Notes: generated by a model not told the origin, from the sequence alone. DNA of 64,000 bases from Allochromatium tepidum (GCF_018409545.1 NZ_AP024563.1:850501-914500), one strand, 5' to 3'. Positions 6,980-64,000 are shown, counted from the first letter of the stretch. Numbers and translations: made by a program.

Positions 6980-7295
6980 ACAGACTCCGGGGTTGAGGTT
7001 GATCGATCGAAACGAAAACCGCCGCGAGAGGCGGCGGTCGATACGGGCGCGAGCGGGCTTGGTCTGCACCTGTCCCGTCGAGGACGGCGAGCATAGGCCA
7101 GATCGCGGATTTGCTCCAGTCCCGCGTAGAGGCTCGTTGCTGGGGTGAAGGCCGGTACCGTCAAGCGTTCGACATCTGCGTGATCCATAATCCTGAGGAT
7201 CGAGCTTTTCGCGGCGCTCGTGCGCTACCCTGTATCAAGGGGTCATGTCGACTCACTCCATCTCTTTCGTTTGCCGCACCGGAGGCGTTTCCACC
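6980..7295. other. Divergent intergenic region with a terminator-like hairpin in the terC leader
   Basis: This gene-free region separates terC (minus) from tal (plus). CCGCCGC (7019-7025) pairs with GCGGCGG (7031-7037); on the minus strand the stem is followed by TTTTCGTTT, which is a good intrinsic-terminator shape, only about 40 bases before the terC start. Because no gene ends there, it may be an attenuator in the terC leader. Some alx/terC genes carry a yybP-ykoY manganese riboswitch, but I could not match that consensus here. On the tal side a GGAGG ribosome site is visible at 7281-7285; no convincing promoter hexamers were seen. Confidence 0.5.
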
Positions 7296-8264
7296 ATGAA
7301 CAGACTCGAAGCACTCAAGAGCATGACCACCGTGGTCGCCGACACCGGCGACTTCCAGGCCATCATCGACTATCGGCCCCAGGACGCCACCACCAATCCC
7401 TCGCTGCTCTACAAGGCGGCGCAGATGCCGGCCTATCGCGAGCTGGTCGAGGACGCGGTGCTCCACGGCACCCGGCACGGCGGCGACAGTCAGGCTCAGG
7501 CGCGTCTGACCATGGACAAGCTGGCGGTCAACTTCGGCACCGAAATCCTCAAGGTCGTCCCCGGCCGGGTCTCGACCGAGATCGATGCGCGGCTCTCGTT
7601 CGACACCGAGGGCACGGTGCGCCGCGCCGAGGCGCTGGTCGATCTCTATGCACAGGCCGGGATCGACGCGCGCGAGCGGGTGCTGTTCAAGATCGCCTCG
7701 ACCTGGGAGGGCATCCGCGCCGCCGAGCGGCTGGAGCGTCAGGGGATTCATTGCAATCTGACCCTGCTGTTCGGTTTCGCCCAGGCCGTGGCCTGTGCCG
7801 ATGCCGGCGTCACGCTCATCTCGCCCTTCGTCGGGCGCATCCTCGACTGGTACAAGAAGGCCGAGAACGTCGCCGGCTATCCGGCCGACGAAGATCCGGG
7901 CGTGCGCTCGGTCACGCGCATCTACAACTACTACAAGCGTCACGACTACCCGACCGTGGTCATGGGCGCGAGCTTCCGCAATCTCGACGAGATCCTGGAG
8001 CTGGCCGGCTGCGACTATCTGACCATCTCCCCGGCGCTGCTCGGTGAGCTGGCCTCGACCGAGGGCGAGGTGCCGCGCCGGCTCGATCCGGACCGGGCGC
8101 GGGCGCTCGACATCCCCAGGGTCGGCTATGACGAGATCGGTTTCCGCTGGGAGCTGAACGAGGACGCCATGGCCACCGAGAAGCTCGCCGAGGGCATCCG
8201 GCTCTTCACCGCCGACACGCTCAAGCTCGAACGCTTCGCGCGCGAGATCAACCAGAGCGCCTGA
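7296..8264 (+). CDS. tal: Transaldolase
   Basis: This is the classical TalA/TalB-size enzyme (322 residues). It transfers a dihydroxyacetone unit between sugar phosphates in the non-oxidative pentose phosphate pathway in the cytoplasm. Signatures are the first family motif ([13 protein letters not shown]), the Schiff-base lysine in [19 protein letters not shown], and [20 protein letters not shown] followed by [14 protein letters not shown]. The ATG at 7296 has GGAGG at 7281-7285; an upstream in-frame GTG at 7245 adds only a non-family extension. It ends 4 bases from the stop of the convergent AEC carrier. Intact and confidently assigned. Confidence 0.97.
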
Positions 8265-8268
8265 GCCG

Positions 8269-9216
8269 CTAACCCGGCACGCCGATCCCCCACAGCCAGA
8301 GTCCGAGATTGAGCGTCACGAACGCCGGCAGCGTCGTGATCACCAGCGCCGTGGCCGGGATCTCGCCCTGATCATAGCGCTGGGCGATCAGCGGGTAGAT
8401 CGTCACCATCGGCAGTCCGGCCAGGATCAGCGCCGCCTGACCGAGCGTCGGGTCCAGGGTCGGCACCAGCATCAGCATCCCAAAGGCCACGAGCGGATGG
8501 ACCACCAGTTTGCCGGTGGCGATCGCCGTCGCCGGGCCGAGCGCACCCCGCACCCGCTGTCCGGCCAGACTGCCGCCGATGGCGAACAGCGCGACCACCG
8601 CCGCCGAGCCGGCCAGTAGCTCGATGGTGCGACCGATCGGCGCCGGCAGGCGCCAGCCGAGCGCGGCGAACGCCAGTCCGGCGGCGATCGCCGGCAGGAT
8701 CGGATTGGTGCCGACCGTGCGCAGCACCCGCCCGAGCGTCCGCAGCACACTGCCGCGTCCGCGCTCGCGATGGAACTCGGTCAGGATCAGGGTCAGCGGC
8801 AGGATGATCAGCACCTCGGTCAGGATCGCCATGACCACCGCGATCAGGGCCGGGTCGCCCAGCAACTGCGCCACCAGCGGATAGCCGATATAGCTGCTGT
8901 TGGACATCGACAGCCCCATGCCATAGAAGGCGTTGTCGAGCGGCGAGGTCCGCCGCGCGATGGAGGCGAGCAGCACGCCGATGCCGTAGGTGATCAGCGA
9001 GGCGCTGACATAGACGAGCAGGAAGTCGGGCACCAGGATGCTGTCGAGCGAGCGCTTGGAGAGCGTGTCGAACAGTAGCGCGGGCAGGGCGAACAGCAGG
9101 GCATAGCGGCTCATGGCGACCGCGCCCTCACGCGGCATCCAGGCCCGACGCACGGCGGCGAAACCGAGTGCGATCAACAGGAAGATGGGGGCGGTGACGG
9201 CAAGGATGGCGAGCAA
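8269..9216 (-). CDS. AEC family (auxin efflux carrier-like) transporter
   Basis: A 315-residue membrane protein with about ten hydrophobic segments. It carries the AEC pattern: an N-terminal helix followed by FAAVRRAWMPREGAVAMSRY, the polar break SNSSYIGYPLVAQLLGDPAL in mid-protein, and AGLPMVTIYPLIAQRYDQGE near the C-terminus. Members export or exchange carboxylates and similar solutes; the substrate here is unknown. The start is probably TTG at 9216, preceded by AGGAAG at good spacing. It converges on tal. Just upstream lies the IS982 fragment, so its native promoter may have been altered. Confidence 0.88.
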   Translation of the reverse strand: MLAILAVTAPIFLLIALGFAAVRRAWMPREGAVAMSRYALLFALPALLFDTLSKRSLDSILVPDFLLVYVSASLITYGIGVLLASIARRTSPLDNAFYGMGLSMSNSSYIGYPLVAQLLGDPALIAVVMAILTEVLIILPLTLILTEFHRERGRGSVLRTLGRVLRTVGTNPILPAIAAGLAFAALGWRLPAPIGRTIELLAGSAAVVALFAIGGSLAGQRVRGALGPATAIATGKLVVHPLVAFGMLMLVPTLDPTLGQAALILAGLPMVTIYPLIAQRYDQGEIPATALVITTLPAFVTLNLGLWLWGIGVPG

Positions 9217-56542: not shown

Positions 56543-58754
56543 TGCTCCTTCCCTGGATGACGACGATGTCGTCCGGTTCATCGATGAGCCATCGGATTGG
56601 GCGCCTTCCACCCAGGTCGACCCCTGGCGCATTCTGATCGTCGACGATGAGGCCGATGTCCATGAGGCGACCCTGCTCGCCTTGCGTGACCTGACGATCG
56701 AGGGGCGTCCGCTCGCCTTTCTCCAGGCCTATTCCGCCCGGGAGGCGCGCGCCATCCTCGCTCAGGATCCGTCGGTGGCGGTCGTCCTGCTGGACGTGGT
56801 CATGGAGTCGGAAGACGCCGGGCTGCAACTCGTGCGCTGGATTCGCCGCGAACTCGACAACCCGTCGGTCCGCGTCATTCTGCGCACCGGCCAGCCCGGT
56901 TATGCGCCCGAACTCGAGACCATCCGTTCCTTCGACATCAACGACTATCGCACCAAATCCGAACTGACGCAGGTGCGGCTCTTCACCAGTCTGACCGTGG
57001 CCATCCGCTCCTACGCGCAGATCCGCCAGATCGAGATGAGCCGTCGCGGTCTGGAATTGATCGTCGAGGCCAGCACGGGACTGATCCGGCGGCGTGCCCT
57101 GCAGCAGTTTGCCGAAGGGGTGGTCACTCAGGTCTGCGCCCTGCTGAACATCGCGCCCGAAGGATTGATCTGCGCCTCGTCCTCGGGTCCGTTCGCCCAT
57201 GCCGCGCCGCTGGTCATCGCCGCCGCCGGACGCTATCGGGAGGTGATCCATCGCCCGCTGGCTGAACTGCACGAGACGCCCGTCCGCGAGGCGCTGCGCC
57301 AGTGTCTGCTCGAAAAACGTCACAGATTCGACCAGGGGGTCTGTCTGTATTTCGATGTCAGCGAGACGCAGGGCATGGCCGCCTATCTCGCCATGACCGG
57401 CGAGCCCAGCCGGATGGATCGCCATCTGCTGGAGGTCTTCTGCGCCAACATTTCGGTGGGCTTCGAAAACGTCCTGCTGCACAACCGGCTCTTTCGGCTC
57501 GCTTACTACGATCAACTTACGGATCTGCCCAACCGTAACCGCTTCATCCAGCTCGTCGAGGAGAAGGGCCGCGATCCAAACATGGCGCTGGCGTTGCTGG
57601 ATCTCGACGACTTCGCCGACATCGCCACCACACTCGATCATCATTTCGGCGACGAGGTGCTGCGGGCCGTGGCCGAGCGGCTGGTACAGATCTTTGGGTC
57701 CGGAGTCATTCCGGCGCGGGTCGCGGGTGATGCCTTTGGCCTGCTCGGCCCGCGCGACCTGATCACTCCAGAGCGGATCCAGCAGGTGTTCAGCGAACCG
57801 CTGACGGTGCGTGACGAAACCATCCGCCTCTCGGCCACCAGCAGTCTGATCACATTGAACGGTCAACCGGCCAGGGGTGGCGATCTGCTCAAGGATGCCG
57901 GCATCGCGCTCAAGCAGGGCAAGCGGCTCGGGCGGGGCAAGGCGAACTATTTTTCGGAGGCGCTCGGTCGGGCCGCGCGCGAGCGCATGCGGATGCTCAG
58001 CAGCCTGCGCGCCGCCTTTTCCGCCGAGCAGCTCTCGCTCGTCTTCCAGCCGCAGATCGAGTTGGCCAGTGGGCGGGTGATCGGCGCCGAGGCGCTGTTG
58101 CGCTGGGAGATCGAGCCTGGACGCTGGGCGCCTCCAGATCAATTCATTCCGCTGGCCGAGCAGTCCGGACTGATCGTGCCGCTCGGTGAATGGGTGCTCC
58201 GTACCGCCTGCCGGGATCTGCACCGTCTGACCGAGCGCGGCCATGCCGGGTTTCGGATGGCGATCAATGTCTCACACGCCCAGTTTCGCGAACCCGGCTT
58301 CGTCTCCATGCTGGAGCGCGTGCTCGCCGACAGCCGGGTCGAGGCCACTCGGATCGAACTGGAATTGACCGAGTCGGTCGCGATGGACCACATCGATGAG
58401 ATCAACACCAAGCTGGCCGACATCCGTCGCCTGGGCGTCAGGATCGCCATCGACGATTTCGGCACCGGCTATTCGTCATTGAGCGTGCTCAGACAGCTCC
58501 ATGTCGACCGTCTGAAGATCGACCGCTCCTTCGTCAACGAGCTCGACGGCGCGAATACCAAGACCGGTATCGCGCCACTCATCATCGCCCTGGGGCACCA
58601 GTGCAACCTGACCCTGATCGCCGAGGGCGTGGAGAACGAAGTGCAGCGCCAGTGCCTGCTGGCGATGGGCTGTCAGGAGGCGCAGGGGTTTCTGTTCGCG
58701 CGTCCCATGCCGATCGAGCGACTGGAGGACTGGATGGCGGCGCAGCCTGGCTAG
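56532..58754 (+). CDS. REC-DUF3369-GGDEF-EAL response regulator (c-di-GMP phosphodiesterase)
   Basis: A 740-residue regulator overlapping the kinase gene by 11 bases. Receiver: ILIVDDEADVHEATLLALRD and VVLLDVVMESEDAGLQL. DUF3369 region: LICASSSGPFAHAAPLVIAA. GGDEF domain is degenerate, with AGDAF in place of GG(D/E)EF, so cyclase activity is unlikely. EAL domain is intact: GAEALLRWE, LELTESVAMDHIDEINTK, IDDFGTGYSSLSVL and LKIDRSFVNEL. It should hydrolyse c-di-GMP when phosphorylated or de-repressed by the two-SBP kinase, coupling external solutes to motility. The GGDEF part may still bind GTP. Confidence 0.95.
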   Translation: MMSDAPSLDDDDVVRFIDEPSDWAPSTQVDPWRILIVDDEADVHEATLLALRDLTIEGRPLAFLQAYSAREARAILAQDPSVAVVLLDVVMESEDAGLQLVRWIRRELDNPSVRVILRTGQPGYAPELETIRSFDINDYRTKSELTQVRLFTSLTVAIRSYAQIRQIEMSRRGLELIVEASTGLIRRRALQQFAEGVVTQVCALLNIAPEGLICASSSGPFAHAAPLVIAAAGRYREVIHRPLAELHETPVREALRQCLLEKRHRFDQGVCLYFDVSETQGMAAYLAMTGEPSRMDRHLLEVFCANISVGFENVLLHNRLFRLAYYDQLTDLPNRNRFIQLVEEKGRDPNMALALLDLDDFADIATTLDHHFGDEVLRAVAERLVQIFGSGVIPARVAGDAFGLLGPRDLITPERIQQVFSEPLTVRDETIRLSATSSLITLNGQPARGGDLLKDAGIALKQGKRLGRGKANYFSEALGRAARERMRMLSSLRAAFSAEQLSLVFQPQIELASGRVIGAEALLRWEIEPGRWAPPDQFIPLAEQSGLIVPLGEWVLRTACRDLHRLTERGHAGFRMAINVSHAQFREPGFVSMLERVLADSRVEATRIELELTESVAMDHIDEINTKLADIRRLGVRIAIDDFGTGYSSLSVLRQLHVDRLKIDRSFVNELDGANTKTGIAPLIIALGHQCNLTLIAEGVENEVQRQCLLAMGCQEAQGFLFARPMPIERLEDWMAAQPG

Positions 58755-58758
58755 ACGT

Positions 58759-59148
58759 TCATACCACCAGGATCTCTTTCGTTTGCAGTCTTCGGGCGCG
58801 TTTTGCCAGCTTCTCATCGAAGGTGGCGAACCGCATCGCTTGAGCACTGCCGGCCAGATGGAGTGCGTCGGCGAAATCCATGCCTTGCTCATGCCAATCG
58901 AGCGCCATGACCACCACCCCGATATGTTCGACTTCGGCCTGTGGCAGACCGATCAGCTTTCGCAGCGTCGACACGATGGTTTCACGCGAGAGCTGATAGG
59001 CAAATCGCAGCACCCACTCCGTCTCAAGCAGCACGGTCTTGCTGAGGAAAATGCTGTGTTGCTCGAACAGGGCGATCGCCCTTGGGCTCTGCGCCGGGTC
59101 GTCATTGGTGACGACCCGCACCACGACGTTCGTGTCAACCGCCAGCAT
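58759..59148 (-). CDS. PIN domain ribonuclease, VapC-type toxin
   Basis: A 129-residue PIN nuclease. Conserved acidic residues are seen in MLAVDTNVVVRVV (first Asp), LLETEWVL (Glu), MDFADALHLAGS (Asp) and ATFDEKLAKRA (Asp). VapC toxins cut tRNA or rRNA when freed from their antitoxin. The start at 59148 overlaps the antitoxin gene by 14 bases, as in typical toxin-antitoxin operons; the longer frame to 59409 is antisense to nothing but reads the antitoxin in another frame. It ends 5 bases from the stop of the convergent EAL gene. Confidence 0.9.
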   Translation of the reverse strand: MLAVDTNVVVRVVTNDDPAQSPRAIALFEQHSIFLSKTVLLETEWVLRFAYQLSRETIVSTLRKLIGLPQAEVEHIGVVVMALDWHEQGMDFADALHLAGSAQAMRFATFDEKLAKRARRLQTKEILVV

Positions 59149-59395
59149 GGTATTCCCGTACTCCACGGGCGATGGCCTCTTGCATGTCATCCAGGGACTT
59201 GGCCGGGCCTCGATACCCGGTGCAACCCACGACTTCATCGAGTGACGTCGACGCAAGGGGCTTGCGGGGTCGCAGGACGACACCATCCGGCCGTGTTTCG
59301 ATTTCGAGCTCCGTGCCCGTCGACCAGTGATAGTGGTCGCGAATGGCCTTGGGCAGTATGACCTGACCCTTGCTGGAAAGGCGCGTGGTTTCCAT
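59135..59395 (-). CDS. AbrB/SpoVT (VapB-type) antitoxin
   Basis: An 86-residue protein with a swapped-hairpin DNA-binding domain: TTRLSSKGQVILPKAIRDHY and HWSTGTELEIETRPDGVVLR. The C-terminal segment (AKSLDDMQEAIARGVREYHA) would wrap the VapC toxin. It probably neutralises the toxin and represses its own promoter. The ATG at 59395 matches the family start. Confidence 0.88.
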   Translation of the reverse strand: METTRLSSKGQVILPKAIRDHYHWSTGTELEIETRPDGVVLRPRKPLASTSLDEVVGCTGYRGPAKSLDDMQEAIARGVREYHAGG

Positions 59396-59545
59396 CGCGA
59401 TCGAGACACCTGTTGGGCGAATGCGGTAAGAAACCATCTTACTCGGAGCCGATAGTGCGAGCAAGGTCAGGCATGATGTTGCTCCTTGAGCGACCTGTGT
59501 CGAGCCTGCTTCGGGAATAAAGGGGCAGCCGCCATGGCCCTCGCG

Positions 59546-59908
59546 TTAGTCAAACCCATACCCGCGCTCTACCCAGTAATGCCAGTCGCCAATGGCCTCG
59601 CGTGTCTCTTCATCGGCTGCCATCGCTTCGAGTTGCGCCAACGGAAATCCCATGACACGTCCATGCCAGGTGGCCAGGACGAACATGTCGTGCAAGCATT
59701 CATTCTCCGGCGCGAGGCGCTCGAGGATCAAATCGTCACTGACGTGCAGAGGCGATATGGAGCGCGGCTGAATGCAGCGTGCTCTGAAGGGAAAGTGCAG
59801 CTTGTCCTCGAGGTAGTAGTACCAACCCATGGCTTGTTCTTCCGCGCCATAGGCGTCCACGATGATCTCCATCGCGATCCGCTCTTCATCGAGTTTCGTC
59901 TCTTTCAC
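59546..59908 (-). CDS. CcbP-like calcium-binding domain protein
   Basis: A 120-residue acidic protein: DEERIAMEIIVDAYGAEEQA, MGWYYYLEDKLHFPFRARC, LAPENECLHDMFVLATW and DEETREAIGDWHYWVERGYG. These blocks correspond to the calcium-binding protein CcbP known from heterocyst-forming cyanobacteria. It is cytoplasmic and may buffer or sense Ca2+. It stands alone, with its GC content lower than the surroundings. The assignment is from memory of the family consensus. Confidence 0.8.
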   Translation of the reverse strand: MKETKLDEERIAMEIIVDAYGAEEQAMGWYYYLEDKLHFPFRARCIQPRSISPLHVSDDLILERLAPENECLHDMFVLATWHGRVMGFPLAQLEAMAADEETREAIGDWHYWVERGYGFD

Positions 59909-60050
59909 GCTTTGTCATAGGCTGATACCCTGTGTAATGCCTCGACGCTTATGTTGCTCGGAAAATCCCCAAGTCTGCACCTGTTGAGCACCTTGGTGAA
60001 AACGTTCGTCGTGTTCCCAAAGCCGCACCCGTGTTTGTGTTCAGGCGGAC

Positions 60051-63000
60051 TCACTCGTCTGGAACCGCTGCCAACAGAAGTGTGTTCAGTAAATTCATCT
60101 CGTTCGATGCCATGAAATACCGATCGTCAAAGACGGTATCCAATTTCAAAGGGTTCGCATTGCCCACCGCAGCGGCCCAAGGATACTCGGCATAGCGTGG
60201 GATGGGCGGCATCACGGCGCTGGTCGCGGACAGGCTCTGGGCGAGCGCATCCCGCCAACACTCAGGCTCTTTGACATCGAAGGGAGCGTTGCCCTCGAGT
60301 CGGCGGTCACGGGCCATGAACTGGATGTATCCGGACGGAACGGCAAGCCAGGTATTCGGCGATTTCAGGCCCTTGAGGGTGTTGAATTCGTTAGCGGCGT
60401 TTTCCTTTTCTCGCTGCAGGATACGCAACAGGTTCGCAGCCGGCTGACGCAGGCTCTGCGGAAAGGTCCGCTCCGACTCGATGGCCTGAAGCTGATTGAT
60501 GAGCCGACGCGCCGTGAGGCTGACCTCCGTGGTGTGCCCCTCGAAGCTGAAGATCTCCATCTTGTCGAAGCACTCCCAGTTTTCGAGAAACACGGGTCCG
60601 GAGACGAACAGGTGCTCGGGGATCGAGGTACCTTTGGATGCATACACCAGAAGCGGGCGCAACGCGCCTGATGCCAAGTCCGCCAGTTGCTTCGCTTCCT
60701 CGTACCGCGCCATCGTTCTCTGATCCGCCGCCCAGGAGGTGGCCGCCTTCAGTGTGGTGCGCGAGAACAGCTCAATGAGGTTGGATTGCGCGCTCTTGAT
60801 CAATCGGATCTGCTCGTCGTCCTTGATGCGCCGCCAGGCCACATCGGCCTCTTTGATGAACTGCGTCACGCTCTGCGACATGAGGCTGATGAGTTCTTCC
60901 AGACCGATTCGCCCCACGGGAACCAGCGCCAGTGACTGACGCAGACCGGCGTCACCCGTGATGCGGGTGAAAATGGTCGCCCGCAGCATCACCAACAGGG
61001 TTAGCAGGTCGATGGAATGTCGCAGCCAGTGCAGCGGGGCCGGCGTCTCCTTGGATTCGACCCTGTAGTCATCGATCAACATCACCAACCGACGCGGCAC
61101 CCGGTCGCCGCAAACTTCGGTTCCTTCCGCATCCTGATAGCGACCACGCCCTCGATAGATCAGTTGCGCCATTTCCATCAGTGCCGCCTCGATATTGAAT
61201 CTCGGCACGGCGGCGATGATGCAGTCGGTCTTCGGGAAGGAGACGCCGCGTGCCCCCGAGGAAGTCATCAAGAATACCTTCTTCTCGTCACGGATCGCCG
61301 GTTTGACCAGATGCTGGCGCTGGTGTCCCGGGACGGAAGAGTCCAGGACGGCAACCCTGTCCGGCCCGATTTCATCTTCATCCGCCAGTGCAGCGGCGAG
61401 GTCGCCCAGGAAGTTCTTGTCCTGCGCAAAATAGATGACTTGCGCCGACCCCATTCTCAGCGCCTTCAGGATTTCTTGTTTGGCACCCTCCAGCACGGTC
61501 TCACCCATCACGCGGCGCACCGCCTGACGCACGGTTTCCAGCTCGCCCGTGCTGCGCACTTCCGGCGTCACGGAGGTGAGCCGAACCCGGTATTCCAGGG
61601 TAAGCCTGTCGGCTGGAAAGCTGTTGGTCATGACGTGGAGCGTCGATTTGGGGCCGCCCGTTCCAATGGGCAATTGCGAAATGGCCATGTCGAATGCACG
61701 CCGGCCGGATGATTGCGACACCAGGATCTTATCGGGCGCGTGCGACTGTCCCGCCTGGAGGTAGCGTGAGAGAACGACCTCATTTGCCAGAGAGGCATCC
61801 GATATGACCAGGGTGACGGTAAAGGGGCTGACTTCATCCTCGAAGCAGCCGATGAATTCATCGTGAAGCCATGAGGCGATGGCATGTACGAAGGGCGAGC
61901 CGGCACCGTCACCGGCCAGTTCGTCGACCATCACGACGATATTTGAGAGGCGACCGGCCAATGCACGACGTTCACGGACGCCGGCGGGGTCTCCAGCCTT
62001 GCTCGCGAAGAGGCCGGAGAGCGCGTCCATGGTGGTCTTGCCGTCGGGCTTCTCGCGGAAGCCCTGAAGCGCGGCGGTGATGACGACCCGGTTCAGATCC
62101 GGGTTCAACGCCAGCAACTCGCGTGTGGTTTTGGCCAGACTCGACAGCACGCCCGCCCTGGCACGCTCATCGACGATGTCTTCATGCTCCGAAATGGTGG
62201 TTTTACCGAAACGGGAGCCGGTGTGACCCGCCTCGATGCGCCGTTCATCTTCGGGGCTGATGACCAGAATGGCTCCGTTCGGCTTGACCAGCGCGGGCAC
62301 GCCGTCTGCCACGACCGCACCATCCACGTGTTTCCTGGTGGCGCGACCGGCTTTCACCTCGGCGCGGTGCCAGCCTGGAGCCGAAGCAATGAGCGCGGCA
62401 TTGGTGGTGATGGTCAGGATTCCCGACGGCTCGTCGTTTCGGCGCGCCAGGCTCTGCGTCACCTCGCGATTGATGACGACGCGCGGGCTGACGTAGAGGA
62501 ACAGATAGCCTTCGGACTTGTGTTCGAGGTACTCCCGAACGGCCGTCGTCTTACCGATACCTGGATTGCCCTCCAGGGCAACTACGTTGACGCGCCCCGG
62601 TCTTGAACGGTCCAGGCCGGCCACGATGGCGGCGGCATGGATGTCGCGCAATGTAACCTGACCGTCTTGTGCGCGCGCCTTGAGGAGCGGCCCCAGCGCC
62701 TGCGCGGCGGGCCGACCGAAAAACTGTGTCAGGTCCGGCGAGTCCGGCGCCAGGGTCAATGCTTTGGAGAGTTCGTAGTGGTCCGCCGGGTTGGCGAAGC
62801 TGTCCAGTGTCTCGACGAACTCAAAGCGATAGTTCTCGCCGGGCGCGGGGGCGTGTGTCAGATCCTTCAGGCCATGTTTCAAGCCTGCGGGAAGTCGCTG
62901 CAGCATGTTTCGGAACACGCGGTCGACCTGATCTCGCAGGCCCGCTTCGTCGCCATCCGCCGGCTTGCGAGCTTTTCGATACGCAAGCCCCATCTGCTCC

Positions 63001-63902
63001 ATGAGTCGGCGTCGAGGGTCGCCTGGATTGTCGGCAAGAAACCGGGCGGAGAGGCTTTCCAGTCCATTCGGTGTGATGGCCAGAGCGCGAACGTTGCATG
63101 GATTCGTCAAGACCCCATCGTTTCGCAACCAGGTCGCCGTGTTCGCGGCATACGAACAGCCTTGGCACAGCTTGTAAAACGGCTTGTTACCGCGCATCAG
63201 CGCAACGAGATGCGGCTTGATGTCGTCGGATAGCGCGAACGATTCGCCGTTCACCTCGGCCGTGATCCGGGCAAAGACACTCCGGCTGTCGATGAGCCGA
63301 CGATGGCGCGTCAGTTCCTCCAGATGGGCGTTCTGGTCCGTGAAGTCCGCTACCGTCTGCGGCATATCGAAGGCGTACTCCTGAACCAGCAAGTAGTTTT
63401 CGCGATCGGCCGACAACCACAGCACGAAGTCGGCATTGGCCGGCTGCCCCTTGGCGGATAACTGCGGGTCAAGCACACCCTTGAGCGCGAATTCACGGTG
63501 GAAGGCCTCACGATCCCGGCGTTGACGTTTTTCCAGTTCCTGCGTGTCGCCGGGAAGCAGTAGCGGGCACCACAGCGCTCTTAGCTTCAACCGCTTCCGG
63601 GCCGTTCGAAGATGGCTCAGGTATTCGCGTGTCGCGGTGTAACCTGTGCCATAGCCCGTCAGGGCCAGATGTTCCACGGCGGCCTTGACGCGGTCGCGGA
63701 GGGTTACGTCGATGAGGCCCAGGCAGTGGTTCAGTGCTTTCGTCACGTCGAGCAGCTGATGCCGTTTCCAGGGCGCAAGCTGGGGATGCTCGGCATCGAC
63801 CAGTCCTTGCTCGATCAGACAGGCCAGCACACCGCGCTTGACCAGCACTTCGTAGGTCTGACCCCAGAATTCAGCCTGCTTTTGGAACGGTAGATCACTC
63901 AT
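60051..63902 (-). CDS. Large helicase-like P-loop protein of unknown system
   Basis: A 1283-residue protein without a recognised family name. Residues ~465-490 carry a Walker A (ALEGNPGIGKTTAVREYLE); VVMVDELAGDGAGS is a DExx-type Walker B, and late motifs of superfamily 2 helicases are visible: VIYFAQDKNFLGDLAAALAD (motif IV), FLMTSSGARGVSFPKTDCII (V) and MEMAQLIYRGRGRY (VI). A four-cysteine site (KLCQGCSYAANTA and TNPCNVRALAI) precedes the ATPase. The N-terminal ~450 residues contain no nuclease or methylase motif I can name. The ATG at 63902 overlaps the end of an upstream gene by 8 bases. An antiphage or plasmid-maintenance role is plausible but inferred. Confidence 0.85.
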   Translation of the reverse strand: MSDLPFQKQAEFWGQTYEVLVKRGVLACLIEQGLVDAEHPQLAPWKRHQLLDVTKALNHCLGLIDVTLRDRVKAAVEHLALTGYGTGYTATREYLSHLRTARKRLKLRALWCPLLLPGDTQELEKRQRRDREAFHREFALKGVLDPQLSAKGQPANADFVLWLSADRENYLLVQEYAFDMPQTVADFTDQNAHLEELTRHRRLIDSRSVFARITAEVNGESFALSDDIKPHLVALMRGNKPFYKLCQGCSYAANTATWLRNDGVLTNPCNVRALAITPNGLESLSARFLADNPGDPRRRLMEQMGLAYRKARKPADGDEAGLRDQVDRVFRNMLQRLPAGLKHGLKDLTHAPAPGENYRFEFVETLDSFANPADHYELSKALTLAPDSPDLTQFFGRPAAQALGPLLKARAQDGQVTLRDIHAAAIVAGLDRSRPGRVNVVALEGNPGIGKTTAVREYLEHKSEGYLFLYVSPRVVINREVTQSLARRNDEPSGILTITTNAALIASAPGWHRAEVKAGRATRKHVDGAVVADGVPALVKPNGAILVISPEDERRIEAGHTGSRFGKTTISEHEDIVDERARAGVLSSLAKTTRELLALNPDLNRVVITAALQGFREKPDGKTTMDALSGLFASKAGDPAGVRERRALAGRLSNIVVMVDELAGDGAGSPFVHAIASWLHDEFIGCFEDEVSPFTVTLVISDASLANEVVLSRYLQAGQSHAPDKILVSQSSGRRAFDMAISQLPIGTGGPKSTLHVMTNSFPADRLTLEYRVRLTSVTPEVRSTGELETVRQAVRRVMGETVLEGAKQEILKALRMGSAQVIYFAQDKNFLGDLAAALADEDEIGPDRVAVLDSSVPGHQRQHLVKPAIRDEKKVFLMTSSGARGVSFPKTDCIIAAVPRFNIEAALMEMAQLIYRGRGRYQDAEGTEVCGDRVPRRLVMLIDDYRVESKETPAPLHWLRHSIDLLTLLVMLRATIFTRITGDAGLRQSLALVPVGRIGLEELISLMSQSVTQFIKEADVAWRRIKDDEQIRLIKSAQSNLIELFSRTTLKAATSWAADQRTMARYEEAKQLADLASGALRPLLVYASKGTSIPEHLFVSGPVFLENWECFDKMEIFSFEGHTTEVSLTARRLINQLQAIESERTFPQSLRQPAANLLRILQREKENAANEFNTLKGLKSPNTWLAVPSGYIQFMARDRRLEGNAPFDVKEPECWRDALAQSLSATSAVMPPIPRYAEYPWAAAVGNANPLKLDTVFDDRYFMASNEMNLLNTLLLAAVPDE

Positions 63903-63999
63903 CGTCCAAGTCCTTTTGGTGCAGCACCCGTGTGACATGCGCCAGCAGCGCCGGAATCGACAGCAGGATGCTGCCTCTGCGGCGACGTGACAACACCTC
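63895..63999 (-). CDS. Unidentified protein, C-terminal end only (cut by window end)
   Basis: On the minus strand an open frame enters from beyond 64000 and ends at TGA 63897-63895 with the last residues LAHVTRVLHQKDLDDE, preceded by EVLSRRRRGSILLSIPAL. The stop overlaps the helicase-like gene start (GATGAGTGA), so the two are translationally coupled. Only about 34 residues are visible, which is not enough to identify the protein. It is probably the core partner of the helicase-like gene. Confidence 0.6.
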   Translation of the reverse strand, partial: EVLSRRRRGSILLSIPALLAHVTRVLHQKDLDDE

Positions 64000-64000
64000 C

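Follow-up and report, generated by a model that had tools for sequence, protein, structure and literature searches.

A helicase-like gene of Allochromatium tepidum and its broken partner as a predicted PIWI-helicase pair against mobile elements

In the anti-plasmid system DdmDE of Vibrio cholerae, the inactive prokaryotic Argonaute (pAgo) DdmE binds DNA guides and recruits to plasmids the superfamily 2 (SF2) helicase-nuclease DdmD, which carries its helicase at the N-terminus and a PD-(D/E)XK nuclease at the C-terminus; no domain was recognised at first in DdmE, and structural modelling linked it to Argonaute (PMC12409362). The pPIWI-RE system is made of three genes encoding, in this order, a restriction endonuclease, a DinG helicase and the pPIWI-RE protein, with a predicted role against invading DNA (PMC3702460), and guided nuclease activity was reported for one stand-alone pPIWI-RE protein (PMC10991935). 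Long-B pAgos that are inactive and encoded together with effectors have been described as well (PMC10620215). Here, a stretch of 64,000 nucleotides from the 3.38 Mb genome of Allochromatium tepidum (contig 1, 850501-914500, called the window) was analysed, and the gene of a large helicase-like ATPase lying at its right end was compared, together with the upstream gene that it overlaps, to these systems. We put at about an even chance that the window gene encodes the helicase subunit of a predicted two-gene system directed against mobile elements, in which PIWI-type sensing would be coupled to a helicase. The pair is probably a defence system, of which one half probably survives in the window, the copy being broken.

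The helicase gene and its upstream partner

The following features of the two genes were located (window coordinates; motifs from the alignment with relatives):

60051..63902, minus strand: SF2-type helicase-like ATPase, 1283 residues (open reading frame, Pfam and motif conservation)
62544..62570, minus strand: Walker A (motif I), GNPGIGKTT, residues 445-453
61908..61937, minus strand: Walker B (motif II), VVMVDELAGD, residues 656-665, with an invariant DE
61233..61262, minus strand: motif V, SSGARGVSFP, residues 881-890
61140..61166, minus strand: motif VI, QLIYRGRGR, residues 913-921, with the terminal arginine
63895..64000, minus strand: 3' terminus of the partner gene (final portion of its candidate RNase H/PIWI-like C-terminal part), overlapping the helicase start by 8 bases

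A previous sequence-only reading of the window had drawn attention to this 1283-residue frame, to four of its motifs (Walker A, DELA, SSGARGVSF and QLIYRGRGR) and to the absence of an evident family. All four motifs were found at the residues given above and are kept in relatives from other classes and in Cyanobacteria, motifs V and VI being largely invariant. A longer start would give 1295 residues; the proteins of relatives start at the 1283-residue position. In the protein, residues 1-430 have no assignment, residues ~435-960 form the helicase core and residues ~960-1283 the C-terminal region. Pfam Helicase_C was detected at 26.4 bits (cut-off 23.5) in the window protein and in all 8 helicase members scanned. 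With Walker A, motif II of the DE type, the two motifs V and VI and Helicase_C, the gene product is an SF2-type helicase as judged by sequence, and ATP-dependent unwinding or translocation is predicted for it. No name for this helicase could be obtained from Pfam, PADLOC, NCBIfam or PHROGs. The N-terminal ~430-450 residues of the window protein and of the 8 members, which the sequence-only reading suggested may hold a new effector or sensor domain, matched no Pfam family, and no nuclease family was present among the Pfam matches listed for these members.

Two candidate features of the protein were examined further. The four-cysteine metal site of the sequence-only reading did not survive the alignment of 8 relatives, in which the C246/C249/C269 cluster varies and C112, outside the helicase core, is the sole invariant residue of the 11 cysteines. 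Within residues 1-430, D158 is followed by an ADF...(E/D)-x-(S/A) pattern reminiscent of a PD-(D/E)XK nuclease; the lysine is missing and no profile supports it, and it is kept as a lead only.

The same reading had proposed a translationally coupled operon, in which the helicase gene overlaps by 8 bases the end of a gene leaving the window. The overlap between the helicase start and the upstream stop (ATGAGTGA) is present, and recurs in the A. humboldtianum (L004) and Ramlibacter (L005) loci; the upstream frame does continue past the window edge (L002:6395-7626, L002 being the locus of the window genome). The coupled arrangement was retained, whereas an intact operon in this genome was rejected on the ground of a deletion of ~1.9 kb in the partner. 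Extension of the sequence rightward and alignment with the A. humboldtianum locus, to which the region is ~97% identical, revealed that a clean internal block (L004 about 7088-9006) is missing from the upstream gene, that the frame is shifted, and that the two leftover pieces, a 116-codon N-terminal open reading frame and a ~327-codon C-terminal frame ending on the helicase start, lie in different frames. In A. humboldtianum, the partner is intact and 1049 residues long. The pair of the window genome is probably inactivated and its helicase orphaned, as the broken frame suggests; the deletion may instead reflect an assembly error. The helicase dN/dS ratio (nonsynonymous over synonymous substitution rates) against A. 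humboldtianum is 0.13 (0.12 for hipA) and is uninformative on a relaxed selection of the orphan helicase, because most of the divergence may predate the deletion.

Besides the A. humboldtianum helicase (97% identity), homologues were found in Ramlibacter, in Cupriavidus, in two more Burkholderiales genomes (G775 and G656) and on 11 of 72,556 plasmid records (Cupriavidus, Acetobacter, Acinetobacter and Cyanobacteria), several of these plasmids being conjugative. The pair is rare, the helicase occurring in one of the 398 genomes of a phylum sample, which is the window's own, and in three of the 399 of a Burkholderiales sample. No helicase match was detected among 50,697 phage records or in three scans of IMG/VR, and a viral origin was rejected on this basis. 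Wherever the helicase is intact, it is immediately preceded on the same strand by a large partner open reading frame or by what remains of it; the two overlap by 4 or 8 bases in most loci and are separated by 5 to 118 bases in the others. The intact partners of relatives have 1012-1198 residues and form one family over its deepest split (proteobacterial versus cyanobacterial profiles, hhalign P 4.5e-13 over 955 columns), and the divergences of helicase and partner are closely correlated (Mantel r 0.996, 1 of 5000 permutations). Helicase and partner are one conserved, co-directional and mostly overlapping gene pair across Proteobacteria and Cyanobacteria.

Damage to one or other gene of the pair was also observed at several unrelated loci: an in-frame stop in the G775 partner (L039:8709-8711), a split helicase frame in Acetobacter (L010:8076-12058), a truncated helicase in G656 (L020) and a C-terminal fragment in Stanieria (L015:7947-9845). 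Draft-assembly errors are a possible cause of some of these. Repeated breakage of either gene would fit a costly immune system.

The fold of the partner and a possible mechanism

The partner matched no Pfam family and no PADLOC model. AlphaFold2 was run on the full-length protein and on residues 602-1049, with three sequences each. The core was the same in both runs and RNase H-like, with three strands followed by a helix, a strand, helices and a further strand. In Foldseek searches against the PDB, the full-length model retrieved RsAgo at ranks 1-4, and the first 21 matches of the C-terminal model were 18 Argonaute/PIWI chains, two chains of the SPARTA short-Argonaute complex and one NurA; glucokinase, RuvC and RNase H1 came below. 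In one of the best local pAgo alignments, read by eye, the invariant Q707 of the partner stands opposite the invariant Q466 of the pAgo, and a lysine, likewise read by eye, is present at position 696 in 6 of the 11 members, close to the K-x10-Q spacing of pAgos; the two are candidate residues of a MID 5'-phosphate pocket. We consider an RNase H/PIWI-like fold of the partner likely. Strands 1 and 4 (beta-1 and beta-4) carry no acidic residue at the positions taken as those of catalytic DEDX residues, which were placed from a low-confidence model, and the partner is probably not a canonical slicer. Inactive members of the PIWI/Argonaute superfamily exist, so that missing catalytic acids are compatible with membership.

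By analogy with DdmDE, a mechanism can be proposed for the intact pair. The partner would end in a PIWI-like RNase H-fold domain that, in the light of weak structural evidence, lacks the usual acids at two catalytic positions, and would sense nucleic acids instead of cleaving them. Once bound to foreign DNA or RNA, possibly through a small guide, it would recruit or license the helicase, which would unwind or strip the invading DNA; host nucleases might do the cutting, or else the helicase itself through its uncharacterised N-terminal region. In the window genome, this predicted sensor is broken, which probably leaves the helicase an orphan.

Several results weigh against a PIWI-type sensor acting with the helicase. 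No Piwi or RNaseH_pPIWI_RE Pfam match was detected in 11 partner members at E-values up to 10, a search in which the HMMER filters drop most weak matches. The structural models are poor (mean predicted local distance difference test scores of 39.5 and 41.7) and, sharing one alignment, are not independent; the best Foldseek E-value was 2.8e-3, with low TM-scores. The hhalign comparisons of the partner with nine pAgos (P 0.61-0.76) and with three pPIWI-RE proteins (P 0.23-0.58) were not significant; this test has little power, because pAgos against pPIWI-RE proteins are not significant either (P 0.27). The matched divergence of the two genes is expected from co-inheritance and also from joint function, and near the Ramlibacter pair (L005) there are only a helix-turn-helix gene and a transposase.

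Among the alternatives, a defence pair whose partner is another RNase H-fold nuclease (NurA-like or RuvC-like), with the helicase as its motor and no guide, is unlikely, though the least improbable of them. NurA appears at ranks 7 and 9 of the Foldseek lists, followed by RuvC and RNase H1, helicase-nuclease pairs are common in defence, and D761 and E985, which are invariant in the partner, might form an unusual active site with the nearly invariant D873. HerA-NurA pairs likewise join an ATPase to a partner of RNase H/PIWI-like fold, a candidate fold in the present case. However, Argonaute/PIWI chains outrank NurA in both Foldseek searches, the partner is about three times as long as the NurA chain (319 residues), and the present ATPase is SF2-like and not HerA-like.

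Genomic surroundings of the pair

The pair belongs to an insert whose part within the window carries these further features:

58742..64000, no strand assigned: window part of the ~8.3 kb insert (contig 909242-917531, L002:1242-9531), missing from two other Allochromatium genomes
59546..59908, minus strand: CcbP-type calcium-binding protein (Pfam 1.3e-37), an insert passenger between the helicase and the VapBC-type pair
59135..59464, minus strand: AbrB/MazE-fold antitoxin, VapB-like (5.9e-11)
58759..59154, minus strand: PIN-domain toxin, VapC-like (1.2e-8)

All the genes of the insert are on the minus strand: a hipB-like helix-turn-helix gene, hipA, the partner remnant, the helicase, ccbP, vapB and vapC. 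The two flanking genes, which by their sequences encode an EAL-type regulator and an FAD-linked oxidase, are ~165 bp apart in the Allochromatium genomes G001 and G007 versus ~8.3 kb here. No tRNA gene was detected across the window and the 40 kb beyond, and Rfam and promoter/terminator scans of the locus gave nothing above chance. The toxin-antitoxin pair and the lower GC content noticed in the sequence-only reading, which had likened the region to a defence island, are both present: the former is of VapBC type, and GC is 60-62% in the region against 62-68% across most of the window, a small difference.

In other genomes, the pair is adjoined by genes of an Mrr type IV enzyme, DUF2357-PDDEXK_7, HNH endonucleases, WYL and methyltransferase proteins, and by Fic, HigBA, a DUF4011 protein and RelE/XRE; in Trichormus, its neighbours are Sacsin-domain genes, a DEAD helicase, a DNA cytosine methyltransferase and DISARM genes. 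This evidence is a list of neighbours and not a statistical enrichment over background. The neighbourhoods examined place the pair in islands or on mobile elements, among them plasmids, with defence neighbours; this is in agreement with the defence setting suggested earlier, and the list speaks against a housekeeping role.

Two loci were observed apart. On Cupriavidus P-10 (L009:16695-20510), the pair adjoins a 751-residue protein matching the PADLOC candidate PDC-M26A and a DUF2357-PDDEXK_7 (McrC-like) protein. On a Trichormus plasmid (L013:11534-19051), two large Sacsin-domain proteins lie beside the pair, the first of which matches PADLOC TmtA over a short stretch.

The same surroundings bear on a rather improbable alternative, namely that the pair serves the upkeep of mobile elements (plasmid or island maintenance, replication or repair) and not defence. 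Many copies are indeed plasmid-borne, several of them on conjugative plasmids, and toxin-antitoxin genes are frequent neighbours. Against it stand the small number of plasmid records that carry the pair (11 of 72,556), the chromosomal copies in islands, the recurrent adjacency to unrelated restriction and DISARM genes and the absence from the phage records searched.

Comparison with described PIWI-helicase systems

Like DdmDE, the present pair consists of two genes with a large SF2 helicase and a partner that has no recognised domain, is likened to Argonaute by (low-confidence) structural models and is predicted to be inactive; it is also located in genomic islands. It differs by the ~430 residues ahead of the helicase core and by the absence of any recognised nuclease family in the helicase; PADLOC and PDB searches gave no sequence match to DdmD or DdmE for either protein, the presence of DdmDE entries in each library not having been checked. 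With pPIWI-RE, it shares a candidate divergent PIWI-type protein encoded with a helicase, but there are two genes and not three, the PIWI-like gene is first and not last, the profile comparison is non-significant, there is no PF13032 match, and the hallmarks of DinG were not seen in the alignment of the helicase, whose sole invariant cysteine, C112, lies outside the core. A separate search of the phylum sample for PF13032 gave no match anywhere and is hence uninformative. As for the inactive long-B pAgos (RsAgo, EcAgo/BPAN), RsAgo is among the top structure matches of the partner models and a candidate inactive PIWI protein is likewise encoded with a downstream gene; however, the proteins associated with long-B pAgos are nucleases, Sir2 or membrane proteins and not helicases, and the present partner has neither a Piwi Pfam match nor a significant profile match. 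Our best reading is that the pair would work like DdmDE, pPIWI-RE and the long-B pAgo systems while being classed outside them; it was filed in this way because the membership tests that were run did not place it in any of them.

It is improbable, even more than a maintenance role, that the pair is a divergent member of DdmDE or of the pPIWI-RE triad lying beyond the reach of the models used. The logic of the parts, a PIWI-type protein with an SF2 helicase, is the same and the top fold matches are Argonaute-like; against this, no match to PADLOC, Pfam or PDB sequences of DdmDE or pPIWI-RE was obtained, gene order and number differ from those of the triad (PMC3702460), and the domain order of DdmD is different (PMC12409362). 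That the window protein is a STAND-like sensor ATPase rather than a helicase is very improbable, the weak nSTAND3 and AAA_16 Pfam matches over its Walker A region being confined to the P-loop region, whereas Helicase_C matches each of the 8 members and little variation is seen in motifs V and VI.

Returning to the predicted PIWI-type sensor and helicase, we tentatively propose, with somewhat less confidence than for the reading itself, that such pairs may form a lineage of PIWI-helicase immunity of their own, the third in bacteria and their plasmids after DdmDE and pPIWI-RE, defined by a catalytically degenerate PIWI-type sensor of ~1050-1200 residues with a new N-terminal region and by an obligately paired SF2 helicase with a new N-terminal domain. 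A search of the open-access literature yielded no paper that names these proteins or any system of such make-up. Both proteins being unnamed in the libraries searched, the intact pairs of A. humboldtianum, Ramlibacter, Cupriavidus and the Nostocales plasmids are ready test material. If the proposal is true, immunity built on a PIWI-type sensor and a helicase would have diversified past the two lineages described so far, and Argonaute-like proteins would have been overlooked, being below the detection of sequence comparison.

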